NCBI GenBank assembly: GCA_017457585.1
Contig: JAFTHD010000136.1
Span: forward strand, 1 to 7,331
Source of the DNA: Bacillota bacterium
Lineage (GTDB): Bacteria > Bacillota_A > Clostridia > Peptostreptococcales > Anaerovoracaceae
Length of the DNA stretch: 7,331 nucleotides
Reading direction: 5' to 3'
Part shown: piece after piece, positions 2,754 through 7,331 of the stretch
Position numbering within the stretch: the stretch's first letter is position 1
How the letters are laid out: each line of letters begins with the position of its first letter
Notes under the pieces: generated by a model
Database searches by the model: none
What the model saw: the letters and a program-made list of their open reading frames with translations, nothing else
What the model was told of the DNA's origin: nothing
Program-made: the position numbers and the translations under genes

Positions 2754-3881
2754 ATGTACTATTTCGATTATAACGGAGAAAAGGTTTCGCTTCTCGGCAT
2801 GGGCTGCATGAGACTGCCGTCGGACAGCGAAGGTAATGTTGACACCGAGGAAGCCATCAACACCATCCGGGAAGGTATTGATGGAGGCATAACTTATTTA
2901 GACACTGCTTATATGTATCACGGAGGCTACAGCGAGAGGATTCTCAGCCAGGCTCTCAAGGACGGCTATCGGGAAAAGGTTCTCGTTGCCGATAAAATGC
3001 CGCCGTGGTTCGCAAAGAAAAAGGAGGATCTGGAGGTAATCTTCAATAAGCAGCTTGAGAGACTTGACATCGACACGATAGATATATACCTGATTCACGA
3101 CATACACGGATCCACATGGGATCTGATCAAGAAATACGGCGTTCTGGAATTCATGGAGCAAAAGAGAGCCGAAGGCAAGATACGCTACATAGGATTCTCT
3201 TTTCACGATGACTATGATCTGTTCGAAGAGGTTATCAATGCTTATCCCTGGGATGTATGTCAGATACAGTACAACTACGTTGATGTAGATTTCCAGGCAG
3301 GAAGAAGAGGTCTTGAGCTTTCCCGCTCCAAAGGAATTCCGGTCATCATCATGGAACCGATGAAGGGCGGCAAGCTGGCAGGCGGCCTTCCGGCTGAAAT
3401 CGACCCCCTGTGGGAAAGGATGAGTGAAAGCAGACCTCCGGTGGACTGGGGTTTTGCTTGGGTTGCAAATCAGCCGGGCATCCTTACCATCCTGAGCGGC
3501 ATGAGCAGCCGCGAACAGCTCCTCTATAACATGAATCTTTTTGGCAGCCTTGCTCCCGGATGTCTCAGTGAAGCCGACAACCGGGTTCTTGAAGACATAT
3601 CATCCAAGTTCAGGGAACTTACGGAGTACGACTGTACCGCATGCAAGTACTGCATGCCTTGTCCTCTGGAGATCAATATTCCTAAGATTATAGACCTGTA
3701 TAATCAGCTGGCGCTGTTTGAGAACAAGGAGCCGATTTATGACGGGTACAATTGGGTAGCGCCGCACTTTGCATCTACATGCGTTGCGTGCAAAAAATGC
3801 GAGTCCATCTGCCCTCAGAAACTCCCCGTCAGCGAAATCATGAAGAAGGCATCACTGGCCTTCGATGGTAAAGAGATATAA
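2754..3881 (+). CDS. Aldo/keto reductase with C-terminal 2x[4Fe-4S] ferredoxin-like domain
   Basis: 375 residues; AGGAGGT at 2744-2750 sets the start at ATG 2754. Residues 1 to about 275 form an aldo/keto reductase TIM barrel. The catalytic tetrad is visible as D50 and Y55 (in DTAYMY), K81 (in ADKMP) and H115 (in YLIHD). The barrel continues with IRYIGFSFHD, QIQYNYVD and IIMEPMKGGKL, typical of this clade. The C-terminal region holds two cysteine clusters, C294-C297-C300-C303-P and C343-C346-C349-C353-P, each suited to a [4Fe-4S] centre. Proteins of this architecture are frequent in anaerobic Firmicutes and are usually annotated only as ferredoxin-containing oxidoreductases. A carbonyl substrate reduced with NAD(P)H plus electron exchange through the clusters is likely; the substrate is unknown. 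No signal peptide, so cytoplasmic. The GH18 gene begins 1 nt after the stop codon, implying co-transcription. Confidence 0.95.
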   Translation: MYYFDYNGEKVSLLGMGCMRLPSDSEGNVDTEEAINTIREGIDGGITYLDTAYMYHGGYSERILSQALKDGYREKVLVADKMPPWFAKKKEDLEVIFNKQLERLDIDTIDIYLIHDIHGSTWDLIKKYGVLEFMEQKRAEGKIRYIGFSFHDDYDLFEEVINAYPWDVCQIQYNYVDVDFQAGRRGLELSRSKGIPVIIMEPMKGGKLAGGLPAEIDPLWERMSESRPPVDWGFAWVANQPGILTILSGMSSREQLLYNMNLFGSLAPGCLSEADNRVLEDISSKFRELTEYDCTACKYCMPCPLEINIPKIIDLYNQLALFENKEPIYDGYNWVAPHFASTCVACKKCESICPQKLPVSEIMKKASLAFDGKEI

Positions 3882-3882
3882 T

Positions 3883-4878
3883 ATGGCAAAAGGAAAAAGC
3901 AAGTCAAAAAACAAGAAGACAACATACGGCAAGATACTGATCCTCATCGTAATCGCAGTCATGCTCGTATTCGCACTTTACGAGTGCCCTGCAAAGGACA
4001 AGAAGGACAGTGCCACATTCGTAGTCGGGTACCTTCCTACCTGGTCCTACGATGCATACAAAGATCTGGACTGGAAGACTCTGACACATGTGAATATCGC
4101 CTTTGTGAATCCGGATTCCTCCGGCAATCTGAGTTGCAGCATACCGGATAAAGACTTGAAGAAAATCGTCCGCAAGGCTCACCGCAAAGGAGTCAGCGTA
4201 GAGATTTCTCTGGGCGGCGGCGGAACTTCAGCCGACTACGTTTCTCTAACGTCCAGCAAAAAGAGCATCAAGGCTTTTGATAAGAAGATCATGAGCTACC
4301 TGAAGGACTACAAGCTGGACGGCGTTGATCTGGATATCGAAGGTGATGCCGATCCTGCTTTCTGGGACAACTACGGCGTCTGGGTCAAAGACCTGTCTGC
4401 AAGGTGTAAGCGAAGCGATAAAATACTCTCCTGTGCCGCAGCAACCTGGTACGATAAGAAGATCTCGGATAAGACCTTCGCCAGGTTTGACTACATATCC
4501 GTGATGGCCTACGACAACAAAAACGATAAGAAGAATCACTCCACATATAAGTATGCTCAGAAATGTCTCGATTACTTCACCGGCAAGAGGGATATATCGC
4601 CATCGCGGCTTGTTCTTGGCATTCCGTTCTATGGATACCGGTATGATGGAGATAAAAACACCGGCAAAGTTGTGACCTACAGGGAAGTGGTCTCAAACAA
4701 CAAGAACGCAGGCAAATCCGATGTGAGCGGCGCCAACCGATACAACGGCATCGACACGGTAAAAAAGAAAACGCGCCTTGCCATGAGCTACAAGGGCGTT
4801 ATGGTCTGGGCTCTCAGTCAGGATGCCTCAGGAAGCAGTTCCCTGCTCCGCGCAATTGGCAATACCATCCGCGAATGA
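3883..4878 (+). CDS. Membrane-anchored glycoside hydrolase family 18 (chitinase-like) protein
   Basis: 331 residues from ATG 3883. A longer frame opens at ATG 3865 but has no ribosome binding site; AAAGAG (about 3870-3875) serves 3883. A Lys-rich head is followed by a membrane segment at about 17-33; there is no lipobox at the following Cys, so an uncleaved anchor or signal peptide is expected. The rest is a GH18 barrel: FVVGYLPTWSY (46-56), the SxGG strand in ISLGGGG (108-114), and the catalytic DGVDLDIE (146-153) with D149, D151 and general acid E153 all present. ISVMAYD (205-211) and VMVWALSQD (307-314) follow. The catalytic set is complete, so activity on beta-1,4-N-acetylglucosamine polymers such as chitin oligosaccharides, N-glycan cores or peptidoglycan-like material is expected outside the membrane. 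No carbohydrate-binding or LysM module is seen. Pairing with a cytoplasmic reductase is unusual. Confidence 0.92.
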   Translation: MAKGKSKSKNKKTTYGKILILIVIAVMLVFALYECPAKDKKDSATFVVGYLPTWSYDAYKDLDWKTLTHVNIAFVNPDSSGNLSCSIPDKDLKKIVRKAHRKGVSVEISLGGGGTSADYVSLTSSKKSIKAFDKKIMSYLKDYKLDGVDLDIEGDADPAFWDNYGVWVKDLSARCKRSDKILSCAAATWYDKKISDKTFARFDYISVMAYDNKNDKKNHSTYKYAQKCLDYFTGKRDISPSRLVLGIPFYGYRYDGDKNTGKVVTYREVVSNNKNAGKSDVSGANRYNGIDTVKKKTRLAMSYKGVMVWALSQDASGSSSLLRAIGNTIRE

Positions 4879-4885
4879 GCGTGAT

Positions 4886-4925
4886 ATGAAGGACGACGCA
4901 ATACTACGTCGCCCTTTCATTTTTT
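4886..4925 (+). terminator. Intrinsic terminator after the GH18 gene
   Basis: The core stem is CGACG (4894-4898) with CGTCG (4907-4911). After one mismatch it extends through GG/CC, AA/TT and, past a bulge, ATG/CAT. A run of six T (4920-4925) follows. It begins 7 nt after the stop codon. Confidence 0.85.
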
Positions 4926-4942
4926 CCGGTCTGCAACGTTAG

Positions 4943-4969
4943 TTGACATCGCGTTTGGATACATAAATT
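4943..4969 (+). promoter_or_regulatory. Weak promoter candidate overlapping the first array copy
   Basis: A perfect TTGACA (4943-4948) is followed after 15 bp by TAAATT (4964-4969), with the first GGATAC copy inside the spacer. The spacer is short and the -10 poor. No open frame follows on this strand, so any transcript would be non-coding. Confidence 0.25.
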
Positions 4970-5138
4970 CGGAAGAACGCTGGAATATGATGGGCGAAGT
5001 ATCCAAAAAGTGTGATTTTTAGGCAATTTGGATACTTATTGAGGGATAATACTGCTGAAAGTATCCACCGAATGGTTTTGACGGCTGTTTTGGATACATG
5101 GGCATGTGAATTTCAACGTTTCTAAGAAAAAAGTATCC
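4954..5138. repeat. Six-copy alternating inverted array of AAGTATCCAAA / TTTGGATACTT
   Basis: The hexamer occurs as GGATAC at 4957-4962, 5030-5035 and 5092-5097, and as GTATCC at 4999-5004, 5061-5066 and 5133-5138. Orientation alternates strictly. Start-to-start spacings are 42, 31, 31, 31 and 41 bp, near 4, 3, 3, 3 and 4 helical turns. The best-matching pair is an 11-bp perfect inverted repeat (4997-5007 with 5027-5037); the consensus in one orientation is roughly AAGTATCCAAA. The set is mirror-symmetric about position ~5048. Adjacent copies can also pair as RNA or cruciform stems of 6-11 bp. I do not recognise the family. It could be a multi-site protein-binding region, a non-autonomous mobile element or an intergenic repeat family. 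Confidence 0.85.
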
Positions 5139-5167
5139 GGACACAATCCGGACGCAATCCGGACACA
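5135..5167. repeat. 11-bp tandem repeat, three copies
   Basis: Three contiguous units of ATCCGGACRCA (ACACA, ACGCA, ACACA endings) differ at one position. The first unit shares its ATCC with the last array copy. The unit length is about one helical turn. Confidence 0.9.
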
Positions 5168-5185
5168 GTGCACAACTTATAAAGT

Positions 5186-5215
5186 CTGAGGCGGCGTAGT
5201 TATACGCCGCCTCAG
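5186..5215. repeat. Perfect 13-bp GC-rich hairpin, loop GTTA
   Basis: CTGAGGCGGCGTA (5186-5198) pairs perfectly with TACGCCGCCTCAG (5203-5215). On the minus strand it is followed by ACTTTATAA and on the plus strand by TGTTCC. Neither is a strong U tract, so it could be a weak bidirectional terminator for the convergent operons or a REP-like element. Confidence 0.8.
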
Positions 5216-5292
5216 TGTTCCTGAATCGTCTTATGAAAAGAGTACATCGATGATTAGGAGTATTGTATGGAAGTTTACTTCTTTGCGTCAGA

Positions 5293-5312
5293 GGGTTAGC
5301 TGATCCTAACCC
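5293..5312. repeat. Inverted repeat GGGTTAG-N6-CTAACCC
   Basis: Seven-bp perfect arms at 5293-5299 and 5306-5312 enclose CTGATC. The half-sites GGTTAG and CTAACC are those of DtxR/IdeR iron boxes, but the spacing here is 6 rather than 1. A T-rich stretch follows on the plus strand, so it may instead be a weak terminator. Confidence 0.6.
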
Positions 5313-5471
5313 CTTATTATTCTATTCACTGTTCTGCGTCCATTCAATAATTAAATTCTGCCTATGTGACTTCGCTCACGACTTTTTTCGTGCCCAAGGT
5401 CAGTAATTTCAATGGAGTTGCAATCGCAATAAGAAAGTTTGCGAGAATATACTTAATAGGTATTATGCTCA

Positions 5472-6350
5472 TCAGAGCCAGAAAACGAGCATTGCAGCGC
5501 TCTCCGGCATGTGGATTCTGCCAACAGAGCAGGCAAGGGTAACGGCTATCATGCCGGTCACTGCACCGTTTTCTCTGATTTCATGTTCGCAGGCGTCAAG
5601 CGGGATCAAAACTTTATCCCTCCTGATCTGCGCACTAAAAAGTTCTCCGTCCCGTTCGTATTTGAGGCTGGTAAGATGGCCGTGCATCATAAATCCATTG
5701 ATTCTGGACTTGGCCACAAGCTCTTTGACCGTCAGCTCTACGAATATGCCTCTGTTGTTTACTTTAAGAATCGCCGGCTTCTCAAATCCTGCATCCGCCA
5801 TGGAAAGACCGTTTACTACCTGGGACGAACCTCTGGCCAGCTTGAGAACCCTGAACCCGACCTGATAAGTTCCCCGATCTATCAAGCCATTCAGAGGACT
5901 CTTGCTCCTGGGTATTTCCTGATATGTCGTTCTCATAATGCGCTTCTGCATTCTGCTGTTGTTGTCCAGGATTTCGTTCAGAACGAAGTCATCCATATCC
6001 TCAACCATGGCGCAGACGCTTCGTTCCATGGCGTCTTCCGGAATCTTCGTGTCCTTGAGATACCTTCGAACACGCTCTATCATGCCGGTGTAGTATGTCA
6101 ACCACTCTTCTCCATCCTCCGTCAGTCTGTTGCGGTCGTCAATGTACCCTGCCTCGTGACAGCGTTTGAAGAATCTGCTTACGGCCGCGTGATTGACTCC
6201 GCACCGCTCTGCAACGATCGACACAGCACCTCTCTTGCGCTGTTTGCTGTCAAGCCCTCCAAGCTCTTCCAGATAATGAATCTGCAGAACCGTCGGCTTA
6301 TTCATTCTGTTGAAATAATCCCTTCTTGCTCCCACCTTGCTGTCTCCCAT
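5472..6350 (-). CDS. Divergent DtxR-like winged-helix protein, degenerate metal site, paralog of upstream neighbour
   Basis: 292 residues. ATG 6350 follows the neighbour's TAG directly (TAGATG) with no ribosome binding site, so it depends on translational coupling; the Met at residue 16 is an alternative. Residues about 17-80 form a winged helix (recognition-helix region GVNHAAVSRFFKRC, wing, then LTEDGEEW). The helical region after it aligns with the DtxR dimerisation/metal domain of the neighbour, but the ligands are largely lost. The RH histidine position is I91. In the segment matching ACRIEH, only C113 stays in register, with V116 and E117 replacing E and H. Residues about 130-292 match the neighbour's unusual C-terminal domain: SPLNGLIDRGTYQVGF, then a GFEKPAILKV strand and an IRRDKVLIP strand. 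It probably binds DNA, alone or with its paralog, but may not sense metal by itself. That last point is inference. Confidence 0.82.
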   Translation of the reverse strand: MGDSKVGARRDYFNRMNKPTVLQIHYLEELGGLDSKQRKRGAVSIVAERCGVNHAAVSRFFKRCHEAGYIDDRNRLTEDGEEWLTYYTGMIERVRRYLKDTKIPEDAMERSVCAMVEDMDDFVLNEILDNNSRMQKRIMRTTYQEIPRSKSPLNGLIDRGTYQVGFRVLKLARGSSQVVNGLSMADAGFEKPAILKVNNRGIFVELTVKELVAKSRINGFMMHGHLTSLKYERDGELFSAQIRRDKVLIPLDACEHEIRENGAVTGMIAVTLACSVGRIHMPESAAMLVFWL

Positions 6351-7154
6351 CTACCAAAGATGTATATTCAGATTTCTTACGTCGCCGTCCAATGGTTCTC
6401 TGCCTTTCTCCGAAAATGCAATGAGCGCGTCCGCATCGGTGACCGGAATCTTGCCGCTTATAGAATACTTGAAGGCAGACGATGGAATTTCGATGCTGTC
6501 TCTATCGCTTATTTCTGCCCTGATCCACTTCTCGTCATTGAGATACCAGAAGTCCGCCTCTTCCATTCCATCTGCGAGCTTCAGCCGGAACACGCTCTCG
6601 TCACCAACTACTGCCTTTACTTCCGGCGTGAAAAAGTCCATTTCCTTCGCAAATACACGAGGATACCTGACGTTGCTCTCGTATATTCCCATGTCAAAGG
6701 TGTACTTCCCCTTATCGTAAAGGGTGTTCAGATCCGCTCCCGTAATGCTTCTTCCACGGATCTGACCGTGCTTCATAAAGTCGCGAATGCCATAGAGCAC
6801 CTCGCTGCTTACGATATGTTCTATCCTGCAGGCGTCGTGATCTGCCGTTCCCTCATCGATGTTGCAGACCATCTGAAGGAATTCCTTGATGTAGTTGTGT
6901 CGGAGGAGAAGATCCTTTGCAAACTCCTTGCCTCTCGTCGTAAGCTCAAGAGTGGTCTGCCCGTCCGCCGAAACGATGTACTCGCCCTCTGCAAGGATGG
7001 CAATGACGCGCTTGTATTCCCATTTGGTCATGGTCATATCCGCAATTGCCTCGTTCATACCGTACGCTCTGTTGTTTCTCCAGGCAACGTAGATGTTTTC
7101 CAGAAGGTCCTCTGCTCTCTCGCTGTCGCCCGGTTTCCTGTCTATCGATCTCAT
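6351..7154 (-). CDS. DtxR/MntR-family metal-dependent regulator with extra C-terminal domain
   Basis: 267 residues from ATG 7154. The frame extends 15 codons further, but GGAAGGG 7 nt upstream and the TAATG overlap with the exporter gene favour 7154. A winged helix (about 10-72) ends in LTTRG, followed by the DtxR dimerisation helices. The primary metal ligands are in place: ACRIEH gives C109, E112 and H113, matching C102/E105/H106 of DtxR. H86 (in RH) matches the ancillary histidine, whereas the usual ancillary Glu four residues on is Lys, with Glu one place later. Cys at the first position is typical of iron-type rather than manganese-type members. The C-terminal ~130 residues (about 136-267) are not an SH3-like domain I recognise; they contain SITGADLNTLYDKGKYTF, FFTPEVKAVV and a closing LNIHLW. 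It probably controls the exporter operon in response to Fe2+ or Mn2+. Confidence 0.88.
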   Translation of the reverse strand: MRSIDRKPGDSERAEDLLENIYVAWRNNRAYGMNEAIADMTMTKWEYKRVIAILAEGEYIVSADGQTTLELTTRGKEFAKDLLLRHNYIKEFLQMVCNIDEGTADHDACRIEHIVSSEVLYGIRDFMKHGQIRGRSITGADLNTLYDKGKYTFDMGIYESNVRYPRVFAKEMDFFTPEVKAVVGDESVFRLKLADGMEEADFWYLNDEKWIRAEISDRDSIEIPSSAFKYSISGKIPVTDADALIAFSEKGREPLDGDVRNLNIHLW

Positions 7155-7331
7155 TACGATACCCTTCCGCTCGCTTTCATTTCGTGAATCTGGTCGCATA
7201 TACCCAGGGTTGACTTCCTGTGGGAAACGAGGATTACCGTCCTCCCGGCCGCCTCTTCCTTGAGGGATTTCAGTATGATTCCTTCGTTCAGGGAATCAAG
7301 ATTGCTGGTCGGCTCATCCAGCAGAAGAAAC
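7154..7331 (-). CDS. ABC exporter ATPase domain, C-terminal end (5' part outside window)
   Basis: The last 58 residues are visible. They start inside Walker B: FLLLDEP with D5 and catalytic E6, the D-loop SNLD (9-12), and the H-loop histidine H37 in RTVILVSHRKSTL. The ending CDQIHEMKASGRVS is typical of half-transporters that fuse a six-helix membrane domain to the ATPase (exporter type, such as MsbA, CydCD or the siderophore-related YbtPQ group). The fusion itself cannot be seen. TAA overlaps the ATG of the DtxR-like regulator by one base, so the genes are translationally coupled. A metal-sensing regulator in the same operon suggests a transporter for metal or metal-chelate homeostasis; the substrate is not shown by this fragment. 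Confidence 0.9.
   Translation of the reverse strand, partial: FLLLDEPTSNLDSLNEGIILKSLKEEAAGRTVILVSHRKSTLGICDQIHEMKASGRVS
7162..7168 (-). promoter_or_regulatory. Ribosome binding site deciding the start of the DtxR-like regulator
   Basis: GGAAGGG on the minus strand lies inside the exporter gene, 7 nt before ATG 7154. The ATG at 7199 that opens the longer frame lies within the exporter's coding sequence, and I see no Shine-Dalgarno sequence before it. Confidence 0.65.

Follow-up and report, generated by a model that had tools for sequence, protein, structure and literature searches.

In the layout known as BIME, repetitive extragenic palindromes (REPs) follow one another in alternating orientation. 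REP doublets that form hairpins are known as REPINs and are tied to RAYT genes. Passages of one account (PMC3733652) place REPs outside genes, mostly behind them, between convergent or unidirectional genes, and describe the spacers of REPs and BIMEs as differing in sequence and similar in length. In part of another account (PMC3116915), the REPIN is presented as an inverted doublet with a less conserved spacer and compensatory changes, forming a mobile unit of ~100 bp.

Here, we describe an array of short inverted words in a stretch of 7,331 nucleotides from a Bacillota bacterium (contig JAFTHD010000136.1), the whole of which is referred to as the window. The reading that we prefer, and which takes about half of our confidence, is that the array is what partial decay has left of one copy of a small palindromic hairpin repeat, a dispersed element resembling REPs and BIMEs.

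The array between convergent genes

The initial annotation of this DNA described six GGATAC/GTATCC hexamers alternating in orientation without exception. Exact sites were indeed found at spacings of 42, 31, 31, 31, and 41 bp (Table 1), and the six-site alternating array is real. The two hexamers occur 10 times in the whole window, compared with 2.40 ± 1.51 times in shuffled sequences (0 of 200 shuffles reached 10). The longest strictly alternating run of any 6-mer within 190 bp is six in the window; among 1,500 first-order Markov sequences of the same length, runs did not exceed five, a run of five arose twice, and a run of six never did, which bears out the claim that the array is no chance cluster. 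A proposed mirror symmetry about ~5048 holds for the positions of the sites, although the outer spacings of 42 and 41 bp render it inexact and the spacers add little to it: no two spacers resembled one another at p < 0.05 in local comparison, and the two outer ones, aligned to each other in inverted register, gave p = 0.04. Spacing near whole helical turns likewise holds in the window but is no rule in its relatives, where steps of 32, 12–13, and 18 bp prevail. The variation of spacer sequence at kept geometry was borne out in both window and relatives, and the 11-bp stem noticed between the second and third sites is complementary throughout.

Table 1. Positions of the sites, potential hairpins, and neighboring genes in the window (arms named as in the units of the relatives; see text)
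Feature	Position	Strand	Remarks
GH18 gene (glycosyl hydrolase family 18)	3865..4878	+	Upstream; 3′ end faces the array
Terminator-like hairpin	4894..4911	+	Behind the GH18 gene; T-rich sequence follows
Site 1, GGATAC	4957..4962	+	Outer arm, TTTGGATAC; outside the four-site core
Hairpin 1, AAGTATCCAAA / TTTGGATACTT	4997..5037	DNA fold on both strands	11/11 complementary
Site 2, GTATCC	4999..5004	-	Arm a, unit 1
Alternative middle hairpin, sites 3 and 4	5029..5067		9/9 complementary
Site 3, GGATAC	5030..5035	+	Arm a'1, unit 1; partner of site 2, 31 bp away
GGATAA, one mismatch	5044..5049	+	Offset +45, the place of a'2 in relatives; perhaps decayed
Hairpin 2, sites 4 and 5	5060..5098	DNA fold on both strands	
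Site 4, GTATCC	5061..5066	-	Arm a, unit 2; 62 bp from site 2
Site 5, GGATAC	5092..5097	+	Partner arm, unit 2; site 4 is 31 bp away
Site 6, GTATCC	5133..5138	-	Outside the core; overlaps copy 1 of an 11-bp tandem repeat
Winged-helix gene, sub-threshold NEAT match	5472..6350	-	Downstream; 3′ end faces the array, convergent

The array sits in a 593-base gap, containing short ORFs only, between the convergent GH18 and winged-helix genes. Regulation of these genes by the array was considered and rejected, because both converge on it. An Rfam search of the window matched no family, and no similar DNA was found in phage and plasmid records for the stretches searched. At 5135–5167, the 11-bp unit ATCCGGACACA stands in three tandem copies, and at 5186–5215 a 13-bp inverted repeat without mismatch (CTGAGGCGGCGTA/TACGCCGCCTCAG) encloses a 4-nt loop and is not followed by a T-run. 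The minus strand of 5472–7199 encodes two adjacent regulators, namely the winged-helix protein, with its weak match to NEAT (iron transport), and a protein with an Fe-dependent repressor dimerization domain. Eight relatives of the winged-helix protein were listed at E ≤ 0.001 in a search of 5.77 billion sequences, and matches were present in 3 of 291 class genomes at 26–28% identity. The best identity of the AKR protein of the window was 47% among the matches listed (245 class genomes); thus, the organism is not placed near the hosts of the family described below.

Dense arrays of the same word also occur in viral contigs. L044 (10101–10302) and L014 (783–987), together with L020, L031, L035, and L050, carry 9–11 GGATAC/GTATCC sites in ~200 bp, and the arrays of the first two appear origin-like, with a VapE-type primase/helicase gene directly adjoining. 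The pattern search that found them returned 41 stretches, about the number that we expected by chance, of which ~10 held dense arrays; genes were examined in two. A search of viral sequences with the four-site pattern of the window gave no match. The viral examples suggest that the array could be a replication-origin-like set of iterons left behind by a phage or satellite element. However, the genes of the window include no replication gene, and the adjacent replication initiator of an iteron origin is absent; moreover, the search pattern itself demanded the GGATAC word of the viral arrays, and chromosomal arrays, located at gene ends, bear many other words. We therefore regard an origin relic as highly improbable.

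Relatives with two hairpins and differing arm words

A wider pattern (outer gaps of 20–36 and a middle gap of 25, with ~0.5 chance matches expected by our estimate) had one match in the genome collection, in Ruminococcaceae bacterium YRB3002. There, the outer gaps, free over 17 values, both equal 26, and two further sites lie within 113 bp. In the window and YRB3002 together, 12 of 12 sites carry the flanking letters A[AT]GTATCC[AG]. Spacer homology between the two arrays is weak (p = 0.04 to 0.75 over five spacers) and was set aside. A DNA search of 39 genus genomes uncovered a further copy on YRB3002 contig C38 (77% over 122 bp) and a single-unit copy on contig C13; a one-unit relative on contig C8 was found later with the covariance model R1. 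A triple pattern matched 4 of 391 class genomes, with a dense array in YRB3002 only and 3–4 sites in each of the other three, and a related pattern matched 6 of 115 genomes of the YRB3002 family, once each in the five other than YRB3002; the genomes besides YRB3002 in both sets were not counted as members. Stretches of the YRB3002 locus (L001) searched against plasmids and phages had no similar DNA, and an Rfam search of nine relative loci returned no family for the arrays; a SAM riboswitch lies elsewhere in L001, at 6189–6273. Directly before the YRB3002 array is a 124-bp segment (L001, 1171–1294) that recurs without an array at G001:C10:104034 (93%) and C7:7700 (99%, partial).

R1 was built from two YRB3002 copies and the window. 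At E ≤ 0.001, it matched 10 of 188 genomes of the order, YRB3002 and nine others. Strict members turned up in three of these, with four arrays in G423 and further members in G450 and G404. G261, G475, and also G450 hold arrays that resemble them in style but have other words, and on reading the matched loci in G440, G414, G453, and G400 no array was seen. Querying genus genomes with a two-array locus of G423 added a copy in G448 and another in G423. A second model, R2, scored members outside its training at 69.8 bits (L264) and 67.7 bits (L265), and L111, which bears another word, at 39.7 bits; across 391 class genomes, searched with the stricter filters used at that scale, it found the family in YRB3002 only. 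No match to R2 at E ≤ 1 was obtained in L107, L145, L148, L150, L152, L137, or L254, and matches were weak in L120 (0.0086) and L126 (0.0028). A third model, R3, recovered the strict members from 480 kb of G423 sequence, with L152 reached only at E = 0.61 and L183 at E = 0.26. A single model for all arm words was thus rejected, R2 and R3 missing or barely matching the arrays with other words. Because the models do not find them, only style links these arrays to the family.

In YRB3002 and its relatives, the dispersed element measures ~115–120 bp and comprises two units of 62–63 bp. Each unit consists of an arm (a), an inverted arm (a'1) 32 bp on, and a second inverted arm (a'2) 12–13 bp further. 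From a to a'1, 17 of 18 relative units have a distance of 32 and the remaining one has 33; a'2 stands at offset 44 or 45 from a in the 18 units measured, and 8 of 8 measured arrays place the next a 18 bp after a'2. The window likewise has inverted arms 31–33 bp apart in two units of 62–63 bp, its steps being 31/31/31; the mismatched word of Table 1 occupies the a'2 position in unit 1, and unit 2 has no second arm there. Strict geometry (32, 12–13, 18) accompanies the words GTATCC, GTATCT, and GTACCT, and also ACTCTAC in L107 (GGATAC, AGATAC, AGGTAC, and GTAGAGT in the inverted arms); AGGTCAA, TATGGCA, ATTTCCC, TCGGACA, and others stand in looser arrangements.

The arm word differs even between arrays inside one genome: GTATCT and GTACCT occur in G423 at the same geometry. 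Array words in that genome are AGATAC, AGGTAC, AGGTCAA, TATGGCA, TCGGACA, ATTTCCC, and TGCGGAA, the last five with looser geometries (e.g., 22/12/29 or 33/73). When 480 kb of G423 were scanned for 7-mers of any sequence that recur in both orientations, 12 clusters emerged (9 non-coding and 3 coding; 1 in simulated sequence); one non-coding cluster, L171 2–151, was dropped as doubtful, leaving eight convincing loci. The same scan yielded 2 clusters in 400 kb of YRB3002 (0 non-coding; simulated 0) and 4 in 12 other class genomes (400 kb; 2 non-coding; simulated 1). Copy number is low, with 2–4 loci found per word: three by pattern and one weaker model match in YRB3002, and at least three loci of GTATCT and two of GTACCT in G423.

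Membership of the window in this double-hairpin family is supported, if modestly, by R3, which was built without the window. The model matched the plus strand at 4989–5120 (22.0 bits, E = 0.0019) and the minus strand at 4998–5099 (22.3 bits, E = 0.0016); in 807 kb, the only other match at E ≤ 1 had E = 0.62. Since the two strands match equally, the core element in the window may run in either direction. The members behind R3 were found via R1, which contained the window, and L001 via a window-derived pattern, so part of the likeness was selected. The element of the window lacks clear second arms, for which reason it would represent a decayed or simpler form, and it has two outer sites that its relatives do not; these, sites 1 and 6, lie about one helical turn beyond the family step of 31. 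The modest score of 22 bits and the unclear second arms would suit an unrelated local duplication or a chance array that merely resembles the family, which we consider very unlikely given the outcome of the 1,500 simulations and the flanking letters and offsets common to window and family. A non-autonomous element and alternative stems were both among the candidates first named for the array, and both fit the double-hairpin reading. The search profile first proposed, AAGTATCCAAA at 31 or 41–42 bp, would miss relatives with other arm words.

Co-change of the arms

In an alignment of nine double units, two-sided changes occurred in 14 of the 24 pairs of the two hairpins. By shuffled controls, which ignore relatedness, the 28 two-sided cells exceed expectation (16.7 ± 2.9; 0 of 500 shuffles reach 28), and slid partners gave at most 17. 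With the window left out and two members added, the corresponding figures were 14 of 23 pairs and 31 cells (16.4 ± 2.8 in shuffles; 0 of 500 reach). The middle hairpin showed two-sided changes in 6 of 11 pairs (a count attained by 6 of 500 shuffles) and in 9 cells (3.5 ± 1.5; 0 of 500). Further pair types were not above shuffles, being reached in 123 of 500, in 148 of 500 without the window, and in 65 of 500 for the middle hairpin. Inner stem columns switch between A–T and T–A together, and G448 differs in its first hairpin only, which reads GTCTCT/AGAGAC, the remaining array being still GTATCT/AGATAC. In matching, the inner flanks of partners reached 69 across all 20 units, compared with 50.9 ± 7.3 (p = 0.007); within subfamilies, they were no better matched than those of non-partners (69 versus 75.2 ± 4.2, p = 0.95), and partner-specific matching of the inner flanks was accordingly dropped as evidence. 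Because partner matching is absent within subfamilies, pairing is supported mainly between them. Arm co-change thus appears to hold largely between subfamilies and in one array (G448), not hairpin by hairpin. Judged from the aligned loci, geometry and arm complementarity are shown to be kept in the family, and the letters of the arms to vary between subfamilies. A dyad-symmetric bound site that changes its word along with its protein would leave a similar pattern.

Binding by one protein at phased, identical sites was an early proposal. A sequence-specific DNA-binding protein, such as a nucleoid protein or multi-dimer regulator, would occupy the six sites, and homologs elsewhere would recognize other words; strict spacing despite variable spacers and the near-whole-turn distances in the window accord with such binding, as does the absence of partner-specific matching within subfamilies. 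Departures from Watson–Crick pairs are also compatible with it: G·T and A·C number 12 each, and since they are equal, nothing demands RNA. What renders the proposal less well supported is that arrays of one genome (GTATCT and GTACCT in G423) differ in word at the same geometry and that one G448 hairpin changed its word alone; in addition, the 18-bp steps of the relatives are not a whole number of B-DNA turns. The setting also argues against it, as both neighboring genes end toward the array and promoter-like matches in 4850–5500 number 3, compared with 1.6 ± 1.3 in shuffles. On these grounds, a bound protein seems unlikely to account for the array.

The hairpins could alternatively act in a transcript, as an RNA or 3′ end structure whose tandem hairpins and alternative stems stabilize or terminate it. 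Indeed, both strands of 4940–5150 fold better than shuffles (z = −2.1, a value reached by 10 of 200 shuffles, and z = −3.7, reached by 0 of 200), and arrays lie behind gene ends. Among seven loci for which neither a convergent nor a divergent setting was seen, array direction equals that of the preceding gene in six (L109, L110, L170, L171, L001, and L264, the last with one neighbor only in view) and is opposite in L265. However, Rfam matches are absent, no T-run directly follows the hairpins by eye, several arrays sit behind a terminator, and one-strand RNA should favor G·T over A·C departures. An RNA function is thus quite unlikely. Folded as DNA, the core of the window gave z = −2.2 and −2.8 on its two strands, values that 9 and 2 of 200 shuffles reached, respectively; a G423 member gave z = −4.2.

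Dispersal and comparison with known systems

Five paralogue pairs, with GTATCC, GTATCT, and GTACCT words, align over 114–148 bp, and their 40-nt flanks match at 5–13 of 40 positions. In G423, the two-array locus follows a gene; used as a query, this locus matched in some part 80 of 85 genus genomes, and the matches mostly end at the gene end. No array was present in the 600 bp behind this gene in 28 of 29 relatives (the best 29 matches), and the remaining one has arrays with other words there. In L254, arrays with the words TTAAGCA (12-bp doublets) and ACCACAG (steps 28/25/28) sit ~190–440 bases past the end of the same gene. Eight of the nine non-coding G423 loci are within ~100 bp of a stop codon (for L171, the short preceding gene was recognized by eye, and the ninth locus is the doubtful one), and several G423 arrays stand directly behind a terminator. 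No target-site duplication was seen by eye at seven copies, read without an alignable empty site. As far as genomic comparison reaches, dispersal with unrelated flanks and intergenic placement of the elements are shown.

If the array is a copy of such a hairpin repeat, a non-autonomous hairpin would spread to extragenic sites behind gene ends, as REPs, BIMEs, and REPINs do. Each a'2 could pair with the next a across 18 bp. Spread would probably proceed as single-stranded DNA, and the hairpin DNA might be handled in trans by a putative enzyme. In its present place, the array may be merely a structured spacer between convergent genes, with no local function. A PF01797 search detected Y1 transposase genes in three of six array genomes, with flanks free of the arm words. 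In L127, L128, and L129, such genes are flanked by GTGACA/GGGGAC-type palindromes, with a near-perfect long palindrome in L129, and the L127 and L128 proteins (two of three compared) match the NCBIfam RAYT model below its cut-off. Mobilization by RAYT was set aside, as no Y1 gene is flanked by arm words and half of the array genomes have none, although such genes might still act in trans. No parent transposase with matching ends was found at the loci read, the genome-wide search covering PF01797 in six genomes.

A different proposal, which we hold to be doubtful, is a mobile or self-renewing class of DNA that inherits its geometry and leaves the arm word free, the word being made uniform within each array. 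Its members would behave as if an enzyme gauged hairpin size on single-stranded DNA, or as if arms were copied from arm to arm. If geometry is read by an enzyme, that enzyme would be a new one, and comparing arrays that differ in word in the same genome would reveal directly if recognition depends on structure alone. Because spacing and pairing hold while the letters turn over between subfamilies, the family escapes repeat finders, which search for shared letters. Among the matches listed, literature titles and abstracts described no such arrays in these bacteria.

Compared with known systems, the hairpin family shares with phage origin iterons of the L044 and L014 type the clustering of GGATAC words, there in doublets 9–12 bp apart. 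Iterons, in contrast, have an adjacent replication gene, denser words, and no 32/12/18 steps. With MITEs, the family has in common that it is non-coding and ~120 bp long and that its outer arms form short terminal inverted repeats (ATGTATCCG/CGGATACAT in YRB3002). Unlike in MITEs, the internal arms repeat the terminal word; neither a target-site duplication (by eye) nor a parent element was found at the loci read.

The likeness to REPs and BIMEs lies in short, opposed, palindromic arms in extragenic positions, with spacers of kept length and differing sequence. The compensatory changes expected of REPs and REPINs are also present, between subfamilies. However, the tag expected at the base of the palindrome (GTAG or CGTC) is lacking in the window, where no GTAG occurs in 4940–5150 (by eye) and one GACG falls inside a loop; some G423 members carry GTAG before the second arm. 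Instead of many copies of one word, 2–4 loci per word were found, no word reaching high copy number in YRB3002 or G423, and the word varies within one genome. None of the six array genomes has a RAYT gene flanked by its own repeat; Y1 genes occur in just three of them, with other palindromes around them, and here the family departs from REPINs. Like REPINs, its members are inverted doublets of similar size with less conserved spacers and compensatory changes, to which they add a second hairpin, extra arms, and the 32/12/18 steps.
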